Assembly: GCF_036227405.1 (NCBI RefSeq)
Contig: NZ_CP109473.1
Span: 744,001 to 808,000, forward strand
From: Streptomyces sp. NBC_01460
GTDB lineage: Bacteria > Actinomycetota > Actinomycetes > Streptomycetales > Streptomycetaceae
Direction: 5' to 3'
Length of the DNA: 64,000 nucleotides
Part shown: piece after piece, positions 7,321-37,497 of the stretch
Layout: each line of letters begins with the position of its first letter
How positions within the stretch are numbered: position 1 is the stretch's first letter
Program-made: the position numbers and the translations under genes
Notes under the pieces: generated by a model
Told to the model about the DNA's origin: nothing
Database searches by the model: none
What the model saw: only the letters and a program-made list of their open reading frames with translations

Positions 7321-7351
7321 CGGGCTCCGGGCCGTCACCCGCCGGAGCCCG
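7321..7351. terminator. Inverted repeat spanning the end of the stressosome operon
   Basis: Ten-base perfect arms CGGGCTCCGG and CCGGAGCCCG, 11 nt apart, straddle the stop of the last minus-strand gene at 7335. It lies at the convergent junction with the transporter and could end transcription of the operon. Confidence 0.5.
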
Positions 7352-7760
7352 GCGCACGGTGGGGGTTCTTCTCCACGGCCAGCACCCTGTCGACGCCGGT
7401 GAGTTCGAGCAGATGGCCCAGTTCCCTGGACACGCCCACGAGCCGAACCGACGCCCCCGCCGTCCGGGCTCTGCGGTGGGCGAGGACGAGCTCCGTGAGC
7501 CCCACGGAGTCGCAGAACGCGAGCCGGGACATGTCGAGGACGAGCGGCGACTCCGCACGCAGGGGGATCTCCTCGACGGCCCTGCGGAAGCGGTCGGCGG
7601 TGAGGTGGTCGAGCTCTCCCGTGAGCCTCAGGACCACCTCGCCCGAAGGGCTGTGGTCCGCGGTGAGTTCCAGCGCGCGGTCAGGCAATCCCAGCACCCC
7701 GTCGGGACGGAGCGACGCCCTGGTCACGATGGGCCCGGGCCGGGGCGAGCAGGGTGTCAC
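7335..7760 (-). CDS. STAS-domain anti-anti-sigma factor, last gene of the stressosome operon
   Basis: The 141-residue STAS protein has the phosphorylatable Ser in FCDSVGL (Ser85) after LVLDMSRLA, the standard position for SpoIIAA/RsbV-type antagonists. Unphosphorylated STAS proteins of this kind bind an anti-sigma kinase and free its sigma factor. GTG 7760 overlaps the stop of the upstream phosphatase gene as GTGA, so it is probably made together with a PP2C enzyme able to dephosphorylate it. It carries an extra N-terminal extension of about 25 residues. The cognate anti-sigma factor is not in the window. Confidence 0.88.
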   Translation of the reverse strand: MTPCSPRPGPIVTRASLRPDGVLGLPDRALELTADHSPSGEVVLRLTGELDHLTADRFRRAVEEIPLRAESPLVLDMSRLAFCDSVGLTELVLAHRRARTAGASVRLVGVSRELGHLLELTGVDRVLAVEKNPHRAPGSGG

Positions 7761-9424
7761 AGGAGCCGGGCGGCCAGCAGCGCGATGTCATCCGTCTTCC
7801 CCTTTCCGAAGGTGTCCAGCAGGACGTCGCACAGCTTCCCCAGTTCCTGTGGCGCGCCGCGGAGCGTGCTGCTCAACGCCTCCATGCTGTCGTCCAGATC
7901 CTCCCCGGGGACCTCGATGAGCCCGTCGGTCAGCAGCAGGAGTGTGGAGCCCGCCCCCACGTCATGACTGGTGGCGGGAGGGTGCGGCAGCTGGAGACCC
8001 AGGAGCGGACCGTGTTCCGTCAGATAGCACGTGGACCCGTCGGGGCGTCTCAGCAGCGGCGGTATGTGTCCCGCGTTCGCGACGTGGATCCGCCGTCCGC
8101 CGGGCTCCACGAGGACGAGGCAGACCGTGACGGTGATGGAGGGACGCAGCCGCACCAGCAACGCGTCCAGGCGGTTCAGCAGCGTCCGGGGGTCGTGCCC
8201 CTCGATGGCGTAGGCACGCAGCGAATGGCGGACCTCACCCATGATCATGGCGGCCTGGAGGGAGTGCCCGGCCACGTCGCCGATGGCCAGCAACAGGCCG
8301 TCGGGCGTCTCTATGGCCTCGTAGAAGTCACCGCCGATCTCGGCGTGATCCGCCGCCGGCTCGTACCGCACCGCCATGTCCACACCGGCCGTTCGAGGGA
8401 GCCGGTCCGGCAGGAACGAGCGCTGCAGGGTGAGGACGAGGGCGTGCTCCTCGCTCTGGCTGCGGAGCGCCTCCAGGGCCAGGGCGCACGCCTGTGCCAG
8501 CTGGGACAGGAGTTCACCGTCGTCGTCTCCCGCCAGCGCGGTGGCGTCCACCGCCAGCGCCACGGGCGGGCGTCCGTGCTTCGTCCGGGCGAGGACCAGC
8601 CCGACCCGGCCCGGGAAGACGTCGGCCCGGCCGGACGCGTCCCTCGAGATGAGGGCTCTCCACTGCTCACCTGACAGCAGCACCGTGTCCGTCCCGATGC
8701 CGTCCCCGAGAGCCGTCTCGCAGAGACTGTCCATGACATGCAGGTCCGTCTGCCAGGCGGGTTCCGTCGGCTGCTCGGGAACTCCCGCCGTCCCCGCCGG
8801 ACCGGACAGGACCGGTGGGGACGTGGCGAGAAGGAGTGCGCGGTTGTCGAGGCTCTGAGAGAGCGCCACGGCGGGGGAGGACATCAGCGCGGCCGCCCCC
8901 GTGGCGGCGGCGGTGGTGAAGGCCTCACCGTTCCGCGCGCCGTACACGGCGAGGGTGCTGCTGTTCAGCGCGGCCACGCGCCTGGCGAGCCGTTCGGCAC
9001 GTCGGCGGGCACGGGCGTAGCGCAGCGCCGCCGTGACCGTGGCCAGCAGCTCGTCGGGCGCGATCGGCTCGGTCAGGTAGGCGTCGGCTCCACGGTGCAG
9101 CCCTTGGGCGCGGTCGCTCACTTCGACGGCCGTCGCGGATACGTGGATGACGGGCAGGGAGGCGGTGCGCGGGTCCGCCTTGATCTGTTCGCACACCTCG
9201 AATCCGCTCATGTCCGGCAGGCGCACGTCCACGACGGCCAGTTCCGGCAGTTCCTCTTCGGACGCCCCGGCCAGCAGGGCGAGCCCCTCGGCCCCGTCGG
9301 CGGCCTCCACCACCGTGTGACCGGCACGTCGCAGCCAGCTGCTCACGATGTAGCGCTTCGTGTCGTTGTCGTCGAGCACCATGACCGTCGCGACGGCGCT
9401 GTCGGTATGCGCGTGGGTACTCAC
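7757..9424 (-). CDS. Receiver-(GAF-like)-PP2C phosphatase, RsbU-type output of the stressosome operon
   Basis: This 555-residue protein has a receiver domain (about 13-130, phospho-acceptor Asp66 in VVDVRLPDMSG), a middle region of about 180 residues that may be GAF-like, and a C-terminal SpoIIE/PP2C domain (about 340-555) with GGDFYEA, IGDVAGHS, TDGLIEVPG and KTDDIALL carrying the metal-binding Asp residues. It should dephosphorylate a STAS protein, most simply the overlapping downstream one. The usual receiver Lys is Glu119 (LTEP), so signalling through phosphorylation may be altered. GTG 9424 overlaps the hybrid kinase stop, which makes the kinase the natural phosphodonor. Confidence 0.9.
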   Translation of the reverse strand: MSTHAHTDSAVATVMVLDDNDTKRYIVSSWLRRAGHTVVEAADGAEGLALLAGASEEELPELAVVDVRLPDMSGFEVCEQIKADPRTASLPVIHVSATAVEVSDRAQGLHRGADAYLTEPIAPDELLATVTAALRYARARRRAERLARRVAALNSSTLAVYGARNGEAFTTAAATGAAALMSSPAVALSQSLDNRALLLATSPPVLSGPAGTAGVPEQPTEPAWQTDLHVMDSLCETALGDGIGTDTVLLSGEQWRALISRDASGRADVFPGRVGLVLARTKHGRPPVALAVDATALAGDDDGELLSQLAQACALALEALRSQSEEHALVLTLQRSFLPDRLPRTAGVDMAVRYEPAADHAEIGGDFYEAIETPDGLLLAIGDVAGHSLQAAMIMGEVRHSLRAYAIEGHDPRTLLNRLDALLVRLRPSITVTVCLVLVEPGGRRIHVANAGHIPPLLRRPDGSTCYLTEHGPLLGLQLPHPPATSHDVGAGSTLLLLTDGLIEVPGEDLDDSMEALSSTLRGAPQELGKLCDVLLDTFGKGKTDDIALLAARLL

Positions 9425-11202
9425 GGTCCGCCGTCCTCTCCGGCTGTGCGAGGGCTGTTCACGTCTCCGAAGGCGGAGACCAGTTGCGCGAGGGTGAGCG
9501 TGGACTTGTCGAGGACGGCTCGCGCGTGCGCCAGTCGTTCCCTGTCCAGCGATCCGGCGGGGGCCGAGGTGACGACCACGACCGGTGTGCCGTGCAGTTC
9601 GGGATCGGCGGCGAGTCCGGCCAGGACCGCGTAGCCGTCCATGTCCGGCATGTGCAGGTCGAGGAGGACGGCGTCGGGCCGTTCGGTGCGGACGGTGGCG
9701 ACCGCAAGGCCGCCTTCTCCGACCTCGACCACCTGGGCGGCCAGCTGGGCCAGGGCGGGACGGATGGCGCTTCGGAACACCTCGTCGTCGTCCACGGTGA
9801 CCAGCGTCGCGAGGACCGGGCTGTGCGGGGCCGGAGCGACGCCCGCGTCCCCGGGCTCCGGTCCGGCGGGCAGTCTCACGGTGACCCGGGTACCCGAACC
9901 CGGCCCGCTCGTGAGGACCAGGCTGCCGCCGAGGAGTTCCGTGAGGCGGCGCGCGTAGGGCAGGCCGAGGCCGGTTCCCGAACGCCCGCGCTGGTGCGGC
10001 CCGCGCACCTGGTAGAACTCCTCGAAGATCTGCTGCTGCTCCTCCTGCGGGATGCCGATCCCCGTGTCCGTCACCGTGAAGACCACGTGGCGGCCGTCGG
10101 GACCGTCGTCGGACGCGACGTCGAGGCTCACGGTGCCGTGCTCCGTGAACTTGAGCGCGTTGGACAGGAGGTTGCGCAGGATCCGGGTGAGCATCACCTC
10201 GTCGGTGACGAGCGGAAGACCGGAGGTGGCGACCGACAGCTCCACCTCGCCCTGCGCGCCGTACCCCTTCAGCGTTCCGCGCAGCTGGCCGAGTACGGCC
10301 CGCAGGTCGACCTGTGCCATGTGCGGTTCGAGCCTGCCCGACTCGGCCTTGGCGACGTCCAGGAGCTCGTCGACGAGCGCGAGCAGCGTGGCGCCGGAGG
10401 CGGAGATCAGGGAGACCTGCCTGCGCTGCTCCTCCTCGAGCCCGCCGGTGCGGTCGTCGAGGAGGAGCCGGGCGAGGCCCACCACGGAGTTCACCGGCGT
10501 ACGCAGTTCATGGCTCACGTTCGCCCAGAACCGTGTCTTCGCCTCGCTGGCTTCCCTCAGCTGTCGCGACTTCTCGTCCAGTTCCGCGTACAGGGCGACG
10601 ACCCCCCTGTTGGTCTCCTCCAGCTCCTCGGACAACTCGGAGTAGAGGGCGACCACTCCCCGGTTGGTCTCCTCCAGCTCCTCGTTGAGGCGGCGGAGTT
10701 CCTCCCTCTGCGCCCGCGACTCCTCCAGGGCGGCTATCAGGTCGCTGGTCTGGGCCCGGGCATCCTCGAGAACGCTGCCGCCGTTGTGCTGCACGAGAAG
10801 GTCCCGCGCTCTCTGCACGCTTTCGGCGGTCTGTGCGCCCGCGGTGAGCTGCTGCTCGATCAGCAGCGTCCGGCTCCGGTCCTCGTGCTGCACCTGGACC
10901 AGTCGGGAGGCGGCCTGCAAGGACTCGTCGCCGGGGCCCGGCCCGTCTCCCCAGAGGAGGACGGCGCGCAGCACGGGCTGGGTTCCCTGTCCCGTGCTCA
11001 GGGCGACCCTCAGACCGGACGAGCCGAGCAGATCCCGGCCGAGCTCGCTCAGCGCGGTGGCCAGACGTATCTGGTCCTGCCTCTCCGCACCGAGGGCCTC
11101 GGCCGCCGCCTTGCCGCTGCGGCGAAGAGCGAAGAGGTCCTGTTCTGTGGTGATGGCGATCGTCACCAGGTGGATGGTGCCGTCGGCCGCGGTGGAACTC
11201 AC
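9421..11202 (-). CDS. Cytoplasmic hybrid histidine kinase with C-terminal receiver
   Basis: This 593-residue protein has no membrane segment. The N-terminus (RLATALSELGRDLLG) looks like a residual RsbT/HATPase-type unit. It is followed by a long coiled coil with an 18-residue duplication (EELEETNRGVVALY twice), a HisKA domain with WANVSHELRTPVNS, a HATPase domain with NLLSNALKF, DTGIGIP and GTGLGLPYARRL, and a receiver domain with LLDLHMPDMDG and LDKSTL. GTG 11202 overlaps the upstream stop as GTGA. The link from stressosome proteins into a two-component phosphorelay is inferred from gene order. Confidence 0.9.
   Translation of the reverse strand: MSSTAADGTIHLVTIAITTEQDLFALRRSGKAAAEALGAERQDQIRLATALSELGRDLLGSSGLRVALSTGQGTQPVLRAVLLWGDGPGPGDESLQAASRLVQVQHEDRSRTLLIEQQLTAGAQTAESVQRARDLLVQHNGGSVLEDARAQTSDLIAALEESRAQREELRRLNEELEETNRGVVALYSELSEELEETNRGVVALYAELDEKSRQLREASEAKTRFWANVSHELRTPVNSVVGLARLLLDDRTGGLEEEQRRQVSLISASGATLLALVDELLDVAKAESGRLEPHMAQVDLRAVLGQLRGTLKGYGAQGEVELSVATSGLPLVTDEVMLTRILRNLLSNALKFTEHGTVSLDVASDDGPDGRHVVFTVTDTGIGIPQEEQQQIFEEFYQVRGPHQRGRSGTGLGLPYARRLTELLGGSLVLTSGPGSGTRVTVRLPAGPEPGDAGVAPAPHSPVLATLVTVDDDEVFRSAIRPALAQLAAQVVEVGEGGLAVATVRTERPDAVLLDLHMPDMDGYAVLAGLAADPELHGTPVVVVTSAPAGSLDRERLAHARAVLDKSTLTLAQLVSAFGDVNSPRTAGEDGGP
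10576..10683 (-). repeat. Two tandem 54-bp units inside the hybrid kinase gene
   Basis: The units 10576-10629 and 10630-10683 encode two 18-residue copies of the coiled-coil segment before the HisKA domain. The copies differ at several third positions, so the duplication is not very recent. Confidence 0.85.
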
Positions 11203-12404
11203 CAGCTTCCCTTCAGTACGGCGACGCCCGCGTCGTCCTTGCGTATCCCTGCCTCACGGAGCAGTTGTGCAGCGGCCACCAGCGGGGTGTGCTCCAGGAA
11301 GCCGGGCAGGGCGGCCGGCTGCCATCGCTCGGTGAGTCCGTCGGAGTGCATGACCACGCCGCCGTGGCGCGGGAGTTCCTGACGCACGGGACGAAGCGTC
11401 GGGAGCTGGTGGCCCACGATCCCGGGCGCCGAGAGGAGTGAACGCCTGGTCTCGGTGTCCGAGTCGACGACGAAGGTGCTCACGTTGCCCACGCCGCAGA
11501 AGTACAGGCTCCGCGTCAGTGTCTCGACGCGCACCACGGCGACGGCTCCCCCACGGCTTCCGCGGAGGGCCCTGTGCAGGTCGGCGAGGACGCCTTCGGG
11601 AGTCTCCGACCGGCTGTCGCGGAACGCCGTCACGGCGGTCTGGGCGGCACGGTGCGCGAGAGGACCATGACCGAGTCCGTCACAGAACATCAGCAACAGG
11701 GCAGGGACCCCGGTGCCGCTCGTACGCACCTGTGCGGTTCTCTCCAGCCGGGCTCGGTCCGGCTCCGGCCGGAATCCGGTCAGCGCCGCCCAGCCGAGCG
11801 GCTCGTCGGAGGACGCCCGTCCCGTCACCTGCCGTGCGGCTGTGGGCTCCGGTCGGTGCTCACCGCCGCCGACGGCGCGCGCGGCCCAGGTGTCCCCGCA
11901 CACGGTCTCGCCGGTGATGGGCCGGGTGAGTCCGGCGACGACGGGCTCTCCCAGCGCGGTGGAACGGCCTGCGGCGTCCTTCGTCCAGAACCGGGCGGAC
12001 ATGACCGTGCCCTTGCCCGGCAGTGAATGCACGTCAAAGGTGTCGGCGAGGCGGACGATCGCCCCGAGGCCTATCCCCAGCGTGCCCGCCGAGGACGAAC
12101 CGTCCACCAGCCACCTGTCGACGTCGGCCATGCCGGGGCCCTCGTCCGTCGTGACGAACTCGACGCCGGCGTCGTGCTCCGTACGCACGATCCGCAGCAG
12201 CAGCGCTCCGTCGACGGCGTGCTTGCGCAGGTTGGAGGCGGCCTCGCTCACGGCGAGAGCGACTTCGGCGCAGCGTGTCGCGTCGAACCCGAGGCGCCTG
12301 GCGAGCGCGGCGGCGGCCCCCCTCGCCGACGCGGGGAGCGACTCGTCGTCACGGAACCAGGCGATGTCCTCGGATTCCAGCAGGGGCGGGGTCAGCGAGC
12401 CCAT
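11199..12404 (-). CDS. HATPase plus SpoIIE/PP2C-like phosphatase (RsbX-type)
   Basis: The 401-residue protein starts with an anti-sigma-type HATPase domain (about 1-140: EVALAVSEAASNLRKHA, DEGPGMADV, GTLGIGLGAI), followed by a phosphatase-like domain (about 190-401) with FCDGLGHGPLAHRAA, AVVRVETLTRSLYFCGVGN and MHSDGLTE. Stand-alone RsbX dephosphorylates RsbS/RsbR and resets the stressosome; here that activity is fused to an RsbT-like ATPase. ATG 12404 is chosen because its sequence begins the conserved domain. The longer frame lies inside rsbT and is a shadow. The 13-nt overlap with rsbT indicates coupling. Confidence 0.85.
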   Translation of the reverse strand: MGSLTPPLLESEDIAWFRDDESLPASARGAAAALARRLGFDATRCAEVALAVSEAASNLRKHAVDGALLLRIVRTEHDAGVEFVTTDEGPGMADVDRWLVDGSSSAGTLGIGLGAIVRLADTFDVHSLPGKGTVMSARFWTKDAAGRSTALGEPVVAGLTRPITGETVCGDTWAARAVGGGEHRPEPTAARQVTGRASSDEPLGWAALTGFRPEPDRARLERTAQVRTSGTGVPALLLMFCDGLGHGPLAHRAAQTAVTAFRDSRSETPEGVLADLHRALRGSRGGAVAVVRVETLTRSLYFCGVGNVSTFVVDSDTETRRSLLSAPGIVGHQLPTLRPVRQELPRHGGVVMHSDGLTERWQPAALPGFLEHTPLVAAAQLLREAGIRKDDAGVAVLKGSW

Positions 12405-12817
12405 TTGGTCACCGCGACCTGCGTGCCCTGGCCGACCTCGGTGTCCAGGGTGAAGTCGTCCACGAGCCTCCGGGCTCCGCTGAGGCCCAGGCCGAGGCCG
12501 CCGCCGGACGTCCAGCCGTCGGTCAGGGCCAGGTCCAGGTCCGGGATGCCGGGGCCGGAGTCCTCGAAGACGGCCGTGACCCCCACCCGGCTGTCCTGGC
12601 GGACGAGTCCGGTGCGCATGACGCCTCCGCCTCCGTACACCAGGGTGTTGCGCGCGAGTTCGCTGGCGGCGGTGACGAGCTTGGTCTGGTCGACGAGGGA
12701 GAGCTTGCACCGCTGGGCCAGGGTGCGCACCAGCTGGCGGGCTCGGACCACGTCGTCGTTCGAGTCGATGGTGATCGTCTCGTGATCGGCGTCGGGGACG
12801 GGCCGCGACCCGCTCAC
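12392..12817 (-). CDS. rsbT: RsbT-type switch kinase
   Basis: A 141-residue GHKL ATPase of the RsbT family. The N-box is VTAASELARNTLVYG (Asn57), the G1 box is DSGPGIPD and the G2 region is GGLGLGLSGARRL. In Bacillus, RsbT phosphorylates RsbS and RsbR, leaves the stressosome and activates RsbU. Here the partner phosphatase is encoded three genes downstream. GTG 12817 overlaps the rsbS stop as GTGA. Compared with RsbW-type kinases, the short length and the position right after an RsbS favour the RsbT assignment. Confidence 0.92.
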   Translation of the reverse strand: MSGSRPVPDADHETITIDSNDDVVRARQLVRTLAQRCKLSLVDQTKLVTAASELARNTLVYGGGGVMRTGLVRQDSRVGVTAVFEDSGPGIPDLDLALTDGWTSGGGLGLGLSGARRLVDDFTLDTEVGQGTQVAVTKWAR

Positions 12818-13191
12818 GTCGTCGCCGGAGGACGGCTGTCGGGCCGGGCCAGCATGTCGAGCCCCTTCTCCAGGGTGAGAGCCGTGCGGACGCCGCCGAG
12901 CGAGAGGCCCAGCTCCACGAGCGTGATGGCGACGGCGGGCCGCATGCCGACCACGACGGTCTCGGCGTCCAGCATGCGCGAGATGGCCGCCGTCGTCGCG
13001 AGCATGCGCCCGACGAACGAGTCGACGATCTCCACCGCGGTGATGTCGATGACGACGCCGGACGCCCCGGTCGCCACGATCCGCGCCGCGAGATCGTCCT
13101 GCAGGTCGAGGACGGTCTGGTCCTCGAGGTCGACCTGGATCGAGACCAGCAGGACGTCGCCGATCTTCAGCACGGGCACACGCTCGGTCAC
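12814..13191 (-). CDS. rsbS: RsbS-type STAS scaffold protein
   Basis: A 125-residue single STAS domain. It has the RsbS hallmark start PVLKIGDVLLVSIQVDLED and the conserved Ser in IVDSFVGRML (Ser58, equivalent to the RsbT target in Bacillus RsbS). RsbS and RsbR co-assemble into the stressosome core that holds RsbT inactive. GTG 13191 overlaps the rsbR stop as GTGA. The order rsbR-rsbS-rsbT is the classical arrangement. Confidence 0.93.
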   Translation of the reverse strand: MTERVPVLKIGDVLLVSIQVDLEDQTVLDLQDDLAARIVATGASGVVIDITAVEIVDSFVGRMLATTAAISRMLDAETVVVGMRPAVAITLVELGLSLGGVRTALTLEKGLDMLARPDSRPPATT

Positions 13192-14063
13192 GCTCGTCCT
13201 CCGGGCAGGTTCAGCTCGACGCTGTTACGCCGCAGAGCGTGCTTGAGCGCGTCGGCGAGCGTCGCCTTGGTGACGATGTCACCGAACTGGATACCGAGCG
13301 CCACGATCGTCTGGGCGATCTGGGGCCGGATGCCCGAGATCGTGCACTCGGCGCCCATCAGCCGGGCGGCGACCACGGTCTTGAGCAGGTGCTGGGCGAC
13401 CTCGGTGTCGACGGCGGGAACGCCGGTGATGTCGATGATCGCCTGGTCGGATCCGGTGTCCACGAGGGTCTGGAGGAGCTTCTCCATCACGACCTGCGTG
13501 CGCGCCGAGTCGAGGGTGCCCACCAGGGGAACGGCGACGACGCCCTCCCACAGCTTCACGACCGGGGTGGACAGTTCCATCAACTGCTCGGACTGGGCGC
13601 TGATGATCTCCTCACGCGCCTTCGCGTACACCTCGATGGTGTGGAGCCCGAGGGCGTCCATGAGACGGCTGAAGCGGAGGTAGGCGTGGATGTCCTCGGC
13701 CGATGTCGCGGTCGTCGGTTCGAGGATCTCCTTGCCGGCGAGCACGCTGATCGCCGTCTCGGTCGGCGTGAAACCCTGCCGCGCCCGGTTCCGGGACAGT
13801 TCACCGAGGAGGGCGCGGACTTCGGCGTACTTGTCGCCCTGCCAGTCGAATCCGCCCGCCCCGAGGCTCTCCACCAGCGCCGAGTACAGCTCCCGCAGCT
13901 CACGGTCCAGCTCCACCAGGGAGATGCGCCCGCGCAGGGTGCGCGAGACCGTCTGTACCCACGCCGCTTCGAGCGACTCCCGCTGCTCCGTGAGCAGCGT
14001 CACCAGGCGGGTGGATATCTCTTGCTCTGCCACCGAGGTGACCCCTTCTCTCATGCTCGTCAT
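13188..14063 (-). CDS. rsbR: RsbR-type stressosome sensor protein
   Basis: A 291-residue protein with an N-terminal helical sensor domain (about 1-150, RsbRD-like rather than a haem globin as far as can be judged) and a C-terminal STAS domain (about 165-285). The STAS phospho-acceptor is Thr220 in GVPAVDTEVAQHL, where RsbR proteins have Thr and RsbS has Ser. ATG 14063 is favoured; an alternative ATG lies at 14054, and the longer reading to 14192 has no ribosome site and odd composition. It is the first gene of the operon, about 250 nt from a candidate small ORF on the same strand. Confidence 0.9.
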   Translation of the reverse strand: MTSMREGVTSVAEQEISTRLVTLLTEQRESLEAAWVQTVSRTLRGRISLVELDRELRELYSALVESLGAGGFDWQGDKYAEVRALLGELSRNRARQGFTPTETAISVLAGKEILEPTTATSAEDIHAYLRFSRLMDALGLHTIEVYAKAREEIISAQSEQLMELSTPVVKLWEGVVAVPLVGTLDSARTQVVMEKLLQTLVDTGSDQAIIDITGVPAVDTEVAQHLLKTVVAARLMGAECTISGIRPQIAQTIVALGIQFGDIVTKATLADALKHALRRNSVELNLPGGRA

Positions 14064-14308: not shown

Positions 14309-14410
14309 TCACACCTCCTCCAGCGCGAAGCCTGCGCAGAGGAGGACAAGGCCGAGGAGGAACACGAGGATGACGGGAAGCACCAGCACCGCGTACCCCT
14401 TCACACGCAC
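14309..14410 (-). CDS. Candidate 33-residue single-span membrane peptide
   Basis: This small ORF starts at GTG 14410 (or GTG 14404) and ends at TGA 14309-14311. The product is almost one hydrophobic helix (LVLPVILVFLLGLVLLCAGF) with basic residues before it and two Glu after it. Codon third positions are nearly all G or C, as in real genes here. GAGCAGG lies upstream at a plausible distance. It is upstream of and co-directional with rsbR. No homologue is claimed, and it may not be expressed. Confidence 0.42.
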   Translation of the reverse strand: MRVKGYAVLVLPVILVFLLGLVLLCAGFALEEV

Positions 14411-14593
14411 TTCACACCTGCTCGGGAGGGGTTCTCACCGTGGGGGGCGTACGGAGGACGACGCGCTTCCGGCCGGGCGCCGTGAGAGGTCGAACCGGTC
14501 CCGGCCGCTCCCTAGGACTCCTCAGGTTTGCGCGCTCGTTTCCGGGTGAAACGGACCTGCGGTCAGCCAGGACGCGCAAGCTCCGGAGGACAC
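14411..14593. other. Intergenic stretch with one weak promoter-like pair
   Basis: Between the small ORF and the Nudix terminator I see only GTTT (14526-14529), 14 nt, then GGGTGA (14544-14549) on the plus strand. This loosely resembles SigB-type promoters, but no plus-strand gene follows. CGTTTC and GAAACG form a short inverted repeat at 14537-14553. I assign no function. Confidence 0.25.
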
Positions 14594-33353: not shown

Positions 33354-33788
33354 GTGGCCGTATTCCGCATCGAGCGCTTCTCCCCCCTTCCCGCCGCCGA
33401 GGCGTGGCGACGGGTGACCGACTGGGACCGGCACGGCGGGACGGTTCCGTTCACCTCGGTCACCGTCACGACGGGCCTGCCCACCCGCACCGGTACGGTC
33501 TTCGTGGCCAGGACCGGTCTGGGGCCGCTGGGCTTCGACGATCCGATGGAAGTGGTGCGGTGGACCCCGCCCACCGCGGGCCGGGCGGGGCTGTGCGCGC
33601 TGGAGAAGCGGGGTTCGGTGGTGCGCGGCCGGGCGTCGATCGACGTCCGGCCGACCGATTCGGGTTCGCATGTCATCTGGGTCGAGGAGCTGCGGGTGCG
33701 GCTGCTGCCCCGCTGGGCCGATCCGCTGCTGGCCACCGCGGGCCGACGGGTCTTCTCCCGCGAGCTCGGCGTCCTGCTGGAGGACTGA
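33354..33788 (+). CDS. SRPBCC-fold (polyketide cyclase-like) small protein
   Basis: The 144-residue protein has an opening strand and helix FRIERFSPLPAAEAWRRVTDW, followed by curved strands (VTVTTGLPTRTGTVFVARTG, MEVVRWTPP) and a long C-terminal helix (ADPLLATAGRRVFSRELGVLL). This pattern is typical of SRPBCC/START-like ligand-binding proteins with no defined reaction. GTG 33354 begins at the conserved strand. It follows the DeoR gene by 67 nt on the same strand. Confidence 0.82.
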   Translation: MAVFRIERFSPLPAAEAWRRVTDWDRHGGTVPFTSVTVTTGLPTRTGTVFVARTGLGPLGFDDPMEVVRWTPPTAGRAGLCALEKRGSVVRGRASIDVRPTDSGSHVIWVEELRVRLLPRWADPLLATAGRRVFSRELGVLLED

Positions 33789-33849
33789 GGGAGCGCGGCA
33801 CGGCGGGCGGGTCTCGGACGTCCGCCCAGAAGGGGCGGCGGCCGGACGG

Positions 33850-35001
33850 GTGCGGTATCCCGGACTCATGGGTCACCGGCGAGGGCACGAGGGGACGCGG
33901 GACGGCACCCGGCCGGGCCCGGCGCTCCTCGTGGCGCCGTTCGCACTCATCGCCGTCGTGACCGTGATCGACATCAACGTGCCGCCCGAGGTGCACCTCG
34001 GGCCCTTTCTCGTGGCGGCACCGGCGCTCACCGCGTCGTTCGCCGGTCCCCGCATGACCGCCGTCGTCGGCGTGGTCGCGGTACTGGCCCAGGCCGCCGT
34101 GGCGCTGGCGCGCTCCAGCATCACCGACCTCAATCACATGTACCAGATCGTCGCCCTGTTCCTGATCTCGGCGATCGTGACGTTCTTCGCCCGCCTGCGG
34201 GAGCGCAACGCGGCGGAGATGGTGCAGTTGCGCACGGTGGCCGAGGCCGCCCAGCGCAGCGTTCTCCGCCCCCTGCCCGTGCGCAGCGGGCCCCTGCACC
34301 TCGCCTCGCTCTACCTGGCGGCCGAGGAGGGCGCGCAGCTGGGCGGCGACCTGTTCGCTGCGGCGCGGACGGCGGAGGGGACCCGCGTGATCATCGGGGA
34401 TGTCCGCGGCAAGGGCCTGGACGCCATCAGCGGCGCCGCCGGGGTCCTGGGCGCCTTCCGCGCACTGGCCCGCCAGGAGGGGCGTCTCCCAGCTCTCGTG
34501 ACACGGCTGGACACGAGCGTGGCCGCGCACCGGATCGACTCGCTGAACGAGAGTGGCGGGCGGTCCGACGACCCCGGGCTCGTCGAGGCCTTCGTCACCG
34601 CTGCCGTGCTGGACCTGCCGGACGCGGCTCCGGAGCTCCGGCTGGTCAGCTGTGGGCATCCGCCGCCCCTGCTGCTGCGGGCCGGCCGGGTGCACACGCT
34701 GGACGCCACGGAACCGGGCCCGCCCCTGGGGGTGGGGCCCCTGTCGGGGGCCCCACCCACCGAGGACAAGTTCGCCTTCCGGGCCGGTGACGTGCTGCTG
34801 CTGTACACCGACGGGGTCACCGAGGCGCGGGACCGCGCGGGGCGCTTCTACCCGCTGGCCGAGCGGGCGGCGTCATGGACCGGCCTGGGGCCGGAGCGGC
34901 TGCTGGAGGAGGCGTGCGCCGATCTCCTGCGGCACGCGGGGGGCCGCCTGGGCGACGACGCGGCCCTGGTCGCGGTGGAGAGGCTCCCGGACCCGGCCTG
35001 A
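33850..35001 (+). CDS. Membrane-anchored SpoIIE/PP2C phosphatase
   Basis: The 383-residue enzyme has four hydrophobic segments in the first 120 residues, a short linker with FFARLRERNAAEMVQLRTVAE, and a PP2C domain (about 150-380). Metal-binding motifs are LGGDLFAAARTAEG, IGDVRGKGLDAISG, LYTDGVTEARD and GDDAALVAVE. Such enzymes dephosphorylate STAS anti-anti-sigma factors or similar targets. GTG 33850 follows GGACGG; ATG 33868 is an alternative. No STAS gene is adjacent. Confidence 0.9.
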   Translation: MRYPGLMGHRRGHEGTRDGTRPGPALLVAPFALIAVVTVIDINVPPEVHLGPFLVAAPALTASFAGPRMTAVVGVVAVLAQAAVALARSSITDLNHMYQIVALFLISAIVTFFARLRERNAAEMVQLRTVAEAAQRSVLRPLPVRSGPLHLASLYLAAEEGAQLGGDLFAAARTAEGTRVIIGDVRGKGLDAISGAAGVLGAFRALARQEGRLPALVTRLDTSVAAHRIDSLNESGGRSDDPGLVEAFVTAAVLDLPDAAPELRLVSCGHPPPLLLRAGRVHTLDATEPGPPLGVGPLSGAPPTEDKFAFRAGDVLLLYTDGVTEARDRAGRFYPLAERAASWTGLGPERLLEEACADLLRHAGGRLGDDAALVAVERLPDPA

Positions 35002-36972: not shown

Positions 36973-37497
36973 GTGATCAGCGAGCCAAGCAGGCACTGCG
37001 CGGTGGAGCTCCAGGCCCTGCCGTCGCGGATCGGTCAGGTCCGCAGAATCATCTCGGCGCAACTGCGCTACTGGCATCTCGATCCTCTGATCGACCATGC
37101 GGCGCTCGGCGTCACCGAACTGCTGACCAACGTCCACCGGCACGCACAGCCGGACAAATCATGCACCGTCGAGGTCGAGCTGCTGCTCGACCGGCTGACG
37201 GTCTCCGTCCACGACCACGACCCCCGGCTGCCGACCGTGTGCGACGCCGATTTCTCCGCCACCTCCGGGCGCGGGCTGGCGATGATCGCCGCGGTCAGCG
37301 AGAGCTGGGGCGTACGACCGAGCGACGACGCGGGAAAGGTCATCTGGTTCACCCTGCTCGCGCCGACGTTCACCACCGCCCTGCCCCCTCTCCCGGTGTA
37401 CGGGTCGACGACCGACGGCCCGTTCGGCTCGGACGTCGCGGGGTTCATGGAGACGACCGCGGCACGGACGCGGGTCCGGTCCGCCGTCGTCGGCTGA
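36973..37497 (+). CDS. Anti-sigma-type HATPase (RsbW-like serine kinase family)
   Basis: The 174-residue GHKL ATPase has VRRIISAQLRYWHLDPLI, the N-box GVTELLTNVHRHA, a G1-like region HDHDPRLPTV (not the usual DxGxG) and SGRGLAMIAAVSESWGV. Many streptomycete proteins of this type lack sigma partners nearby and are orphan regulators. GTG 36973 is the start. A C-terminal extension of about 40 residues (FTTALPPLPVYGSTTDG) is not part of the fold. It could act on STAS proteins elsewhere, including that of the stressosome operon, but this is only possible. Confidence 0.85.
   Translation: MISEPSRHCAVELQALPSRIGQVRRIISAQLRYWHLDPLIDHAALGVTELLTNVHRHAQPDKSCTVEVELLLDRLTVSVHDHDPRLPTVCDADFSATSGRGLAMIAAVSESWGVRPSDDAGKVIWFTLLAPTFTTALPPLPVYGSTTDGPFGSDVAGFMETTAARTRVRSAVVG

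Follow-up and report, generated by a model that had tools for sequence, protein, structure and literature searches.

A 64,000-nucleotide stretch of Streptomyces sp. NBC_01460 (contig NZ_CP109473.1, positions 744,001 to 808,000; hereafter, the window) carries on its minus strand a run of seven open reading frames, at 7335..14063, in which stressosome genes are followed by those of a two-component relay. The original prediction, made from the nucleotide sequence, of a seven-gene stressosome operon encoding RsbR, RsbS, RsbT, an RsbX-like protein (X), a hybrid histidine kinase, a receiver-PP2C phosphatase (P) and a STAS protein is borne out by the open reading frames and their Pfam domains, namely, in gene order, RsbRD_N+STAS, STAS, HATPase_c, HATPase_c_2+SpoIIE, HisKA+HATPase_c+REC, REC+SpoIIE and STAS (Table 1). 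All six junctions overlap, as had been noted, five of them as GTGA (R/S, S/T, X/kinase, kinase/P and P/STAS) and the sixth, T/X, by 13 bases; these overlaps suggest that the genes are co-transcribed. Conservation was assessed in the best 80 of 284 confirmed loci, fetched with the kinase as the query (hereafter, the relatives).

Table 1. Features of the stressosome operon (window coordinates)
Feature	Coordinates	Strand	Evidence
RsbR (RsbRD_N + STAS)	13188..14033	-	Pfam PF14361 3.3e-22, STAS 1.3e-13
RsbS (STAS), Ser58	12814..13191	-	Pfam STAS 7.7e-9; Ser58 in 77/77
RsbT serine kinase, N-box and glycine boxes intact	12392..12817	-	Pfam HATPase_c 9.4e-11
RsbT stop/X start overlap, 13 bases	12392..12404	-	Same -13 spacing in 60/76 relatives
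X, RsbT-like ATPase fused to PP2C, RsbX-like	11199..12404	-	HATPase_c_2 2.5e-14, SpoIIE 1.5e-9
Hybrid histidine kinase, whole gene	9421..11202	-	HisKA 5.7e-17, HATPase_c 2.4e-29, REC 6.7e-15
Eroded RsbT-derived input domain (N-domain), kinase residues 1-118	10849..11202	-	hhalign, hmmsearch, AlphaFold2, fold search, motif counts
Helical linker, two 18-residue repeats (EELEETNRGVVALYxEL type)	10582..10689	-	Related linker in PP2C fusions
Kinase C-terminal receiver, Asp515	9493..9804	-	Asp515 in 63/81 kinases; lacking in some
P, REC-GAF-PP2C phosphatase, Asp66	7757..9424	-	REC 9.7e-19, SpoIIE 7.3e-43
STAS anti-anti-sigma-like protein, DS(V)GL serine	7335..7760	-	Pfam STAS 1.9e-17; TIGR00377 above cut-off

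An eroded RsbT relative at the N terminus of the kinase

Residues 1-118 of the hybrid kinase are homologous to RsbT, RsbW and SpoIIAB, both by sequence and by predicted fold; AlphaFold2 predicts the fold of this N-domain with high confidence, with strand 1 and helix 1 retained. The Pfam HATPase families match none of the 65 members of the N-domain family. The intact N-box and glycine boxes of an active RsbT serine kinase are lacking, and N57 is lost in 80 of 81 kinases (those of the relatives plus the query) as well as in all 111 actinobacterial kinases (the N-domain matches minus one PP2C protein). Given the loss of N57 and of the ATP-site residues, this is a derived domain that is probably inactive rather than an RsbT kinase and, judging from these residues, is likely to have lost ATP binding.

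Among the 65 N-domain sequences, R27, R46 and T49 are invariant, and S52 and E53 are nearly so; the 111 actinobacterial kinases have R27 in 111, E53 in 110 and N57 in none. In RsbW, according to the part of the source that was available (PMC7340262), Arg23, Asp42, Lys44/Ser48, Glu49 and Tyr118 form hydrogen bonds with RsbV. When the RsbW numbering is tied in via the RsbT-SpoIIAB alignment, with the SpoIIAB-to-RsbW offset of 3 read from the catalytic Glu, R27, R46, S52 and E53 appear to occupy partner-contact positions, with the ATP-site residues gone. Position 46 is Lys in RsbT (77/77), basic like R46 of the N-domain, and Asp in RsbW. Four of the five RsbW contact positions are among the 8 most conserved of the 118 columns (hypergeometric test, 4.4e-5), an enrichment that is only suggestive: it was tested post hoc, omits Tyr118 (no fixed-offset placement) and is confounded by helix packing.

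The same domain, invisible to Pfam, is found on two kinds of output enzyme. Protein P0105 of Streptomyces subrutilus consists of the N-domain and linker (47% over 184 residues to the kinase) fused to a PP2C part (58% over 231 residues to P). The operon takes the form R-S-T-X-[domain-PP2C], skipping the kinase, in four Streptomyces genomes (L133-L136); in L135, a STAS gene is also present upstream of rsbR. A fifth fusion copy (L137, G135:C333) lies beside a fragment of X only, and R, S and T were not seen with it; its frame looks broken, and the same genome holds the kinase form (L097, G135:C170). One set of 30 loci included 28 of the kinase form, the window's own among them, and 2 of the fusion form. 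Altogether, 493 PP2C fusions were found; in the 100 counted of the 120 listed, R27 is present in 98, E53 in 99 and N57 in none.

Outside the actinobacteria, intact copies of the domain are found. Plasmid pMP1 of Deinococcus radiodurans (L183:2590-8395) has the order R-S-T-X-kinase-receiver protein, and the N terminus of its kinase is a complete RsbT domain (hhalign E-value 8.5e-29, 36% identity) with the N-box and both glycine boxes; the arrangement in Deinococcus sp. KNUC1210 is similar. The genes of the pMP1 operon, which also reads as R-S-T-X-kinase-kinase with the intact domain on the first kinase, are annotated merely as STAS, anti-sigma and ATP-binding proteins. With the pMP1 domain as the query, 39 proteins were obtained, each matching Pfam HATPase_c_2, HisKA and HATPase_c, including those from Herbaspirillum, Candidatus Koribacter, Pyrinomonadaceae and Verrucomicrobiaceae, which are known here from proteins, not from gene neighbourhoods. 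In this intact set (the 39 plus the query, n=40), R27 is present in 39 sequences, and E53, N57, D86 and the five glycines in all 40.

Gene order and distribution

The genes R-S-T-X-kinase-P lie on one strand in a fixed order in 75 of the 80 relatives; the remaining five loci (L011, L045, L048, L073 and L074) are truncated by contig ends, and X or the kinase is in pieces in a few of the 75 (e.g. L033, L041 and L058). The shared order supports the predicted union of a stressosome and a kinase/receiver-PP2C pair in one gene string, the order of the six core genes being unbroken in each of the 75 loci containing them. The seventh gene does not share this conservation: a STAS gene directly behind P was detected (BLAST E-value 1e-4) in at least 6 of the 80 loci, L001 and five loci of Kitasatospora (L016-L020), a lower bound in that a few of the loci stop within P or shortly beyond it. 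In several others, a STAS-like gene lies upstream of rsbR. The STAS gene behind P is thus lineage-specific, and the conserved unit consists of six genes. The overlaps of -4 are kept at R/S in 71 of 76 loci, at S/T in 74 of 76, at X/kinase in 60 of 80 and at kinase/P in 70 of 79. In the genome collection, the closest named relative by the kinase is [Kitasatospora] papulosa (88%).

The distribution of the operon across genomes is patchy. These genome searches scored only the top candidates per genome, so that the counts are lower bounds. The kinase, at a cut-off of 1e-60, matched 10 of 61 genomes, namely the window's own, 2 of 36 of the same genus and 7 of 15 of the same order; of the same-genus pair, the match in G033 is to a different kinase, which lacks the N-domain. 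The P0105 N-domain plus linker, at 1e-15, matched at least 36 of 384 Streptomyces genomes, the match in G292 being confined to the linker, and the N-domain profile, at 1e-10, matched at least 5 of 396 genomes sampled from the phylum, with two of the five matches lying in frames some 150 residues long, which may be RsbT. Among the six proteins, pairwise distances in 76 sequences correlate at r 0.71-0.94; these values come without a species-tree control, and co-inheritance was therefore dropped as evidence.

Components of the stressosome and the relay

RsbR (sensor and STAS domains with Thr sites), RsbS (STAS with Ser) and RsbT, the stressosome core, are encoded together. The predicted phosphorylation sites Thr220 of RsbR and Ser58 of RsbS and the RsbT N-box (Asn57) were all recovered, each in 77 of 77 sequences; a second RsbR site, Thr183, and D86, G88, G90, G107, G109 and G111 of RsbT are likewise invariant (77/77). 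The RsbR sites are numbered from the ATG at 14063 that was chosen originally; GTG 14033, where most of the relatives shown begin, is the more likely start, and the sites then become Thr210 and Thr173. The RsbR sequence in the alignment began at 14057, and its numbering runs two lower than the count from ATG.

X has the PP2C domain with metal-binding Asp residues and the location next to rsbRST that are typical of RsbX, but adds an RsbT-like ATPase domain to the single-domain RsbX described in the available part of PMC9237108. Its ATPase and PP2C motifs are kept in nearly all relatives, and the N-box is intact. Because this domain is RsbT-like as well, the operon encodes three domains of the RsbT type. 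The ATPase domain of X also keeps the R/E pair, in 76 of the 76 sequences with letters at those positions.

The kinase shows the hybrid HisKA-HATPase-REC architecture of the RsbK type, with His231 invariant (81/81). Pfam detects no CHASE3 or GAF sensor in it, and, with a maximum 19-residue hydropathy of 1.61, it has no stretch resembling a membrane helix, in contrast to the membrane-bound RsbK; five of the 81 kinases exceed 1.8. The 18-residue repeat of the linker, read as 11 + 7, would hold a coiled coil in register. The core motif of the repeat has two, one and no matches in 23, 30 and 28 of the 81 kinases, respectively. The inner receiver lacks a fully conserved Asp515 and 17 of the 81 kinases are shorter than 520 amino acids, so that this domain is dispensable; direct transfer from His to Asp66 of P would be a simpler route than one via the inner receiver. 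In a phage collection, five records match the kinase from residue 198 on, and none covers the N-domain.

P combines a REC domain bearing a phospho-acceptor Asp with PP2C catalytic residues, as do RsbY and RsfR, and has a GAF-like middle domain beyond the REC and PP2C domains originally recognized. Asp66 is present in 79 of 80 sequences, and each PP2C Asp residue is kept in 79 or all 80 of them. The RsbU_N domain (PF08673) characteristic of RsbU was detected neither in P at an E-value of 0.1 nor in the genome at 0.001.

Comparison with known systems

The papers compared here were available in part, and statements on what they describe refer to those parts. RSTX modules followed by two-component genes are already known, from Vibrio vulnificus (RSTX-D1-D2) and other Proteobacteria (PMC9237108); as in the window, rsbRSTX is directly followed by kinase and receiver genes, without an RsbU gene and without a sigma gene. 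In contrast, the last relay gene here encodes a REC-GAF-PP2C protein, and the proteins downstream of RSTX in that paper have RsbU_N in some cases and lack it in most, with no RsbT-like kinase input domain described. According to its authors, no interaction with RsbT came out positive (PMC9237108). In the open-access literature, we found no downstream kinase or phosphatase with an input domain derived from RsbT.

RsbK-RsbY of Bacillus cereus resembles the pair in the window in that a hybrid kinase and a receiver-PP2C protein act on RsbV, but RsbK is a membrane-bound protein containing CHASE3 and GAF domains, whereas the kinase here is soluble, starts with the RsbT-derived domain and is part of a stressosome operon; in B. 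cereus, the environmental-stress route of SigB activation is called absent. Hybrid kinases in SigB modules were reportedly treated by de Been in 2011. In Mycobacterium smegmatis, an actinobacterial kinase and receiver-PP2C protein, RsfS-RsfR, similarly control an anti-anti-sigma protein; RsfS, however, is a CHASE3 kinase, and no stressosome genes are named in this unit (PMC10950880). The rsbR-S-T-X-rsbUW genes of slow-growing mycobacteria are also actinobacterial stressosome genes with rsbX, feeding the SigB-type SigF, but the output is rsbUW, without mention of an accompanying kinase/receiver pair (PMC8115616). In Bacillus subtilis, the RsbRST stressosome drives the PP2C phosphatase RsbU via a partner domain at the N terminus and a helical linker (PMC12143880). 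The same source mentions kinases with RsbU_N in stressosome operons and proposes exchange of input domains via helical linkers; the input domain here is RsbT-like instead of RsbU_N.

Within the genus, Streptomyces coelicolor has rsb genes at SCO7320-SCO7325. SCO7325 is RsbV and acts on SigB (PMC8346170), and next to it SCO7324 is the first gene in an operon of five related to RsbR/RsbS (PMC7244524); SCO7323 is labelled an antagonist and SCO7322 an anti-sigma factor. This operon fits the five-gene fusion form (L133, L134 and L136), in contrast to the kinase form of the window, and SCO7320 would then be a domain-PP2C fusion. The S. coelicolor gene order was reportedly given as rsbV-R-S-T-U1-U by Lee in 2004. 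SCO7327 is a hybrid kinase of S. coelicolor, the cascade of which has been described as unclear.

A proposed signalling chain

The original prediction held that P is driven by RsbT, by the kinase or by both. This can be sharpened: RsbU_N was found neither in P nor in the genome, and the kinase carries an eroded RsbT domain that is fused to PP2C in four genomes, which points to a likely chain from the stressosome via the input domain of the kinase to P. Because the N-domain is common to the kinase and fusion forms and lies just behind R-S-T-X, the most economical view is that it takes in the signal of the stressosome, with the kinase-P relay added to, or lost from, a route leading to the same PP2C. 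We assign a probability of about 0.5 to the reading in which the RsbT-derived domain is the point of action of the stressosome on the kinase, and the kinase and P relay the signal to a STAS protein and to a sigma factor encoded far away.

Under this proposal, RsbR, RsbS, RsbT and the feedback phosphatase X would form the stressosome, with the two-component relay as its output. The ATP site of the N-domain is lost but the helix face that touches the STAS partner in RsbW is kept, so that the domain probably docks where RsbT docks, either on the STAS shell of RsbS and RsbR or on RsbT itself. Upon stress, RsbT would phosphorylate RsbR and RsbS, altering the contact of the N-domain and thereby, through the helical linker, the kinase core, which would set the phosphorylation state of Asp66 of P; in the known counterparts, as far as the source was available, phosphorylation activates RsbY but inhibits RsfR (PMC10950880). 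P would dephosphorylate a STAS anti-anti-sigma protein, here the product of the seventh gene and elsewhere perhaps one encoded upstream or in trans, and the dephosphorylated protein would free a SigB-type sigma factor encoded far off; X would reset RsbR and RsbS.

A different place for the same contact is conceivable: the N-domain might be a receptor for free RsbT, the two pairing via the helix-1/strand-1 dimer face of the family, in the role that the N-domain of RsbU plays for RsbU. This face, which is the dimer face of RsbW, is kept in the AlphaFold2 model, RsbW and SpoIIAB form homodimers in the published accounts available in part, and RsbT released in a genome in which RsbU_N was not found needs another target; however, the residues that are kept are STAS-contact residues too, and we regard such a receptor as rather unlikely. 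Long helical linkers are known to dimerize kinases of this type, and the loss of the ATP-site residues would also be expected of a worn-out remnant with a structural role only, in kinase dimerization; the confident predicted fold, the invariance of R27, R46 and T49 in 65 sequences and the fusion of the whole domain to another output enzyme make this very improbable. We also doubt, if not quite as strongly, that the operon merely ensures co-expression of two parallel inputs, with RsbT acting in trans and the kinase alone driving P in response to its own signal. Such separation would agree with V. vulnificus, where binding of RsbT to the downstream two-component protein could not be shown (PMC9237108), and with RsfSR and RsbK-RsbY, which the available accounts describe without stressosome input. 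Pfam, however, finds no other sensor domain in the kinase, the one N-domain present is an RsbT relative, and four genomes skip the kinase and place this domain on the PP2C protein.

Beyond the proposed chain, we tentatively suggest, with somewhat less than even confidence, that a catalytically dead copy of RsbT serves as a portable input domain, connecting the stressosome directly to a histidine kinase or a PP2C phosphatase, with the kinases mimicking RsbT on the shell. On the kinases, the domain is intact in Deinococcus stressosome operons and in Herbaspirillum and Acidobacteria proteins and eroded in actinobacteria. The kinases would then compete with RsbT, and one complex would gate partner switching and the phosphorelay together. 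The V. vulnificus paper, in its available part, leaves open how stressosomes without RsbU signal onward (PMC9237108); a downstream enzyme with an input domain derived from RsbT offers a concrete, testable answer for one class and, if the domain is indeed portable, would provide an explanation for a large class.

Surroundings of the operon and candidate sigma factors

Upstream of the operon are Nudix and Lnt-like genes, and downstream a convergent transporter gene (Pfam). As predicted, no sigma factor is near: a SigB/F/G sigma model has no match within the window, and seven genes elsewhere in the genome score above the cut-off, the nearest about 195 kb away. A SigB-type promoter match 5' of rsbR (GTGTGA-N13-GGGTAC, 14393-14417, minus strand, about 330-380 bases upstream) was rejected as being at chance level across relatives; the loose pattern occurs in 6 of 77 upstream regions against 1.9 expected, and the control maximum is also 6. 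With this frequency, and with no such pattern upstream in the closest relative (L001), no promoter is claimed.

The closest paralogues of the seventh-gene STAS protein in the genome (41%, C1:3517033; 40%, C1:3446421) include one, C1:3446421, that adjoins a SigB/F/G-type sigma gene and a HATPase_c_2 gene; this neighbourhood is a lead to the partner of the STAS protein, not an assignment. The predicted lack of an RsbW gene holds for the genes adjoining the operon, although the window as a whole does contain a HATPase_c_2 gene (36973-37497, plus strand). Together with a SpoIIE-type PP2C gene (33670-35001, plus strand), it lies about 20-23 kb from the operon, and the two perhaps form a separate partner-switching pair.

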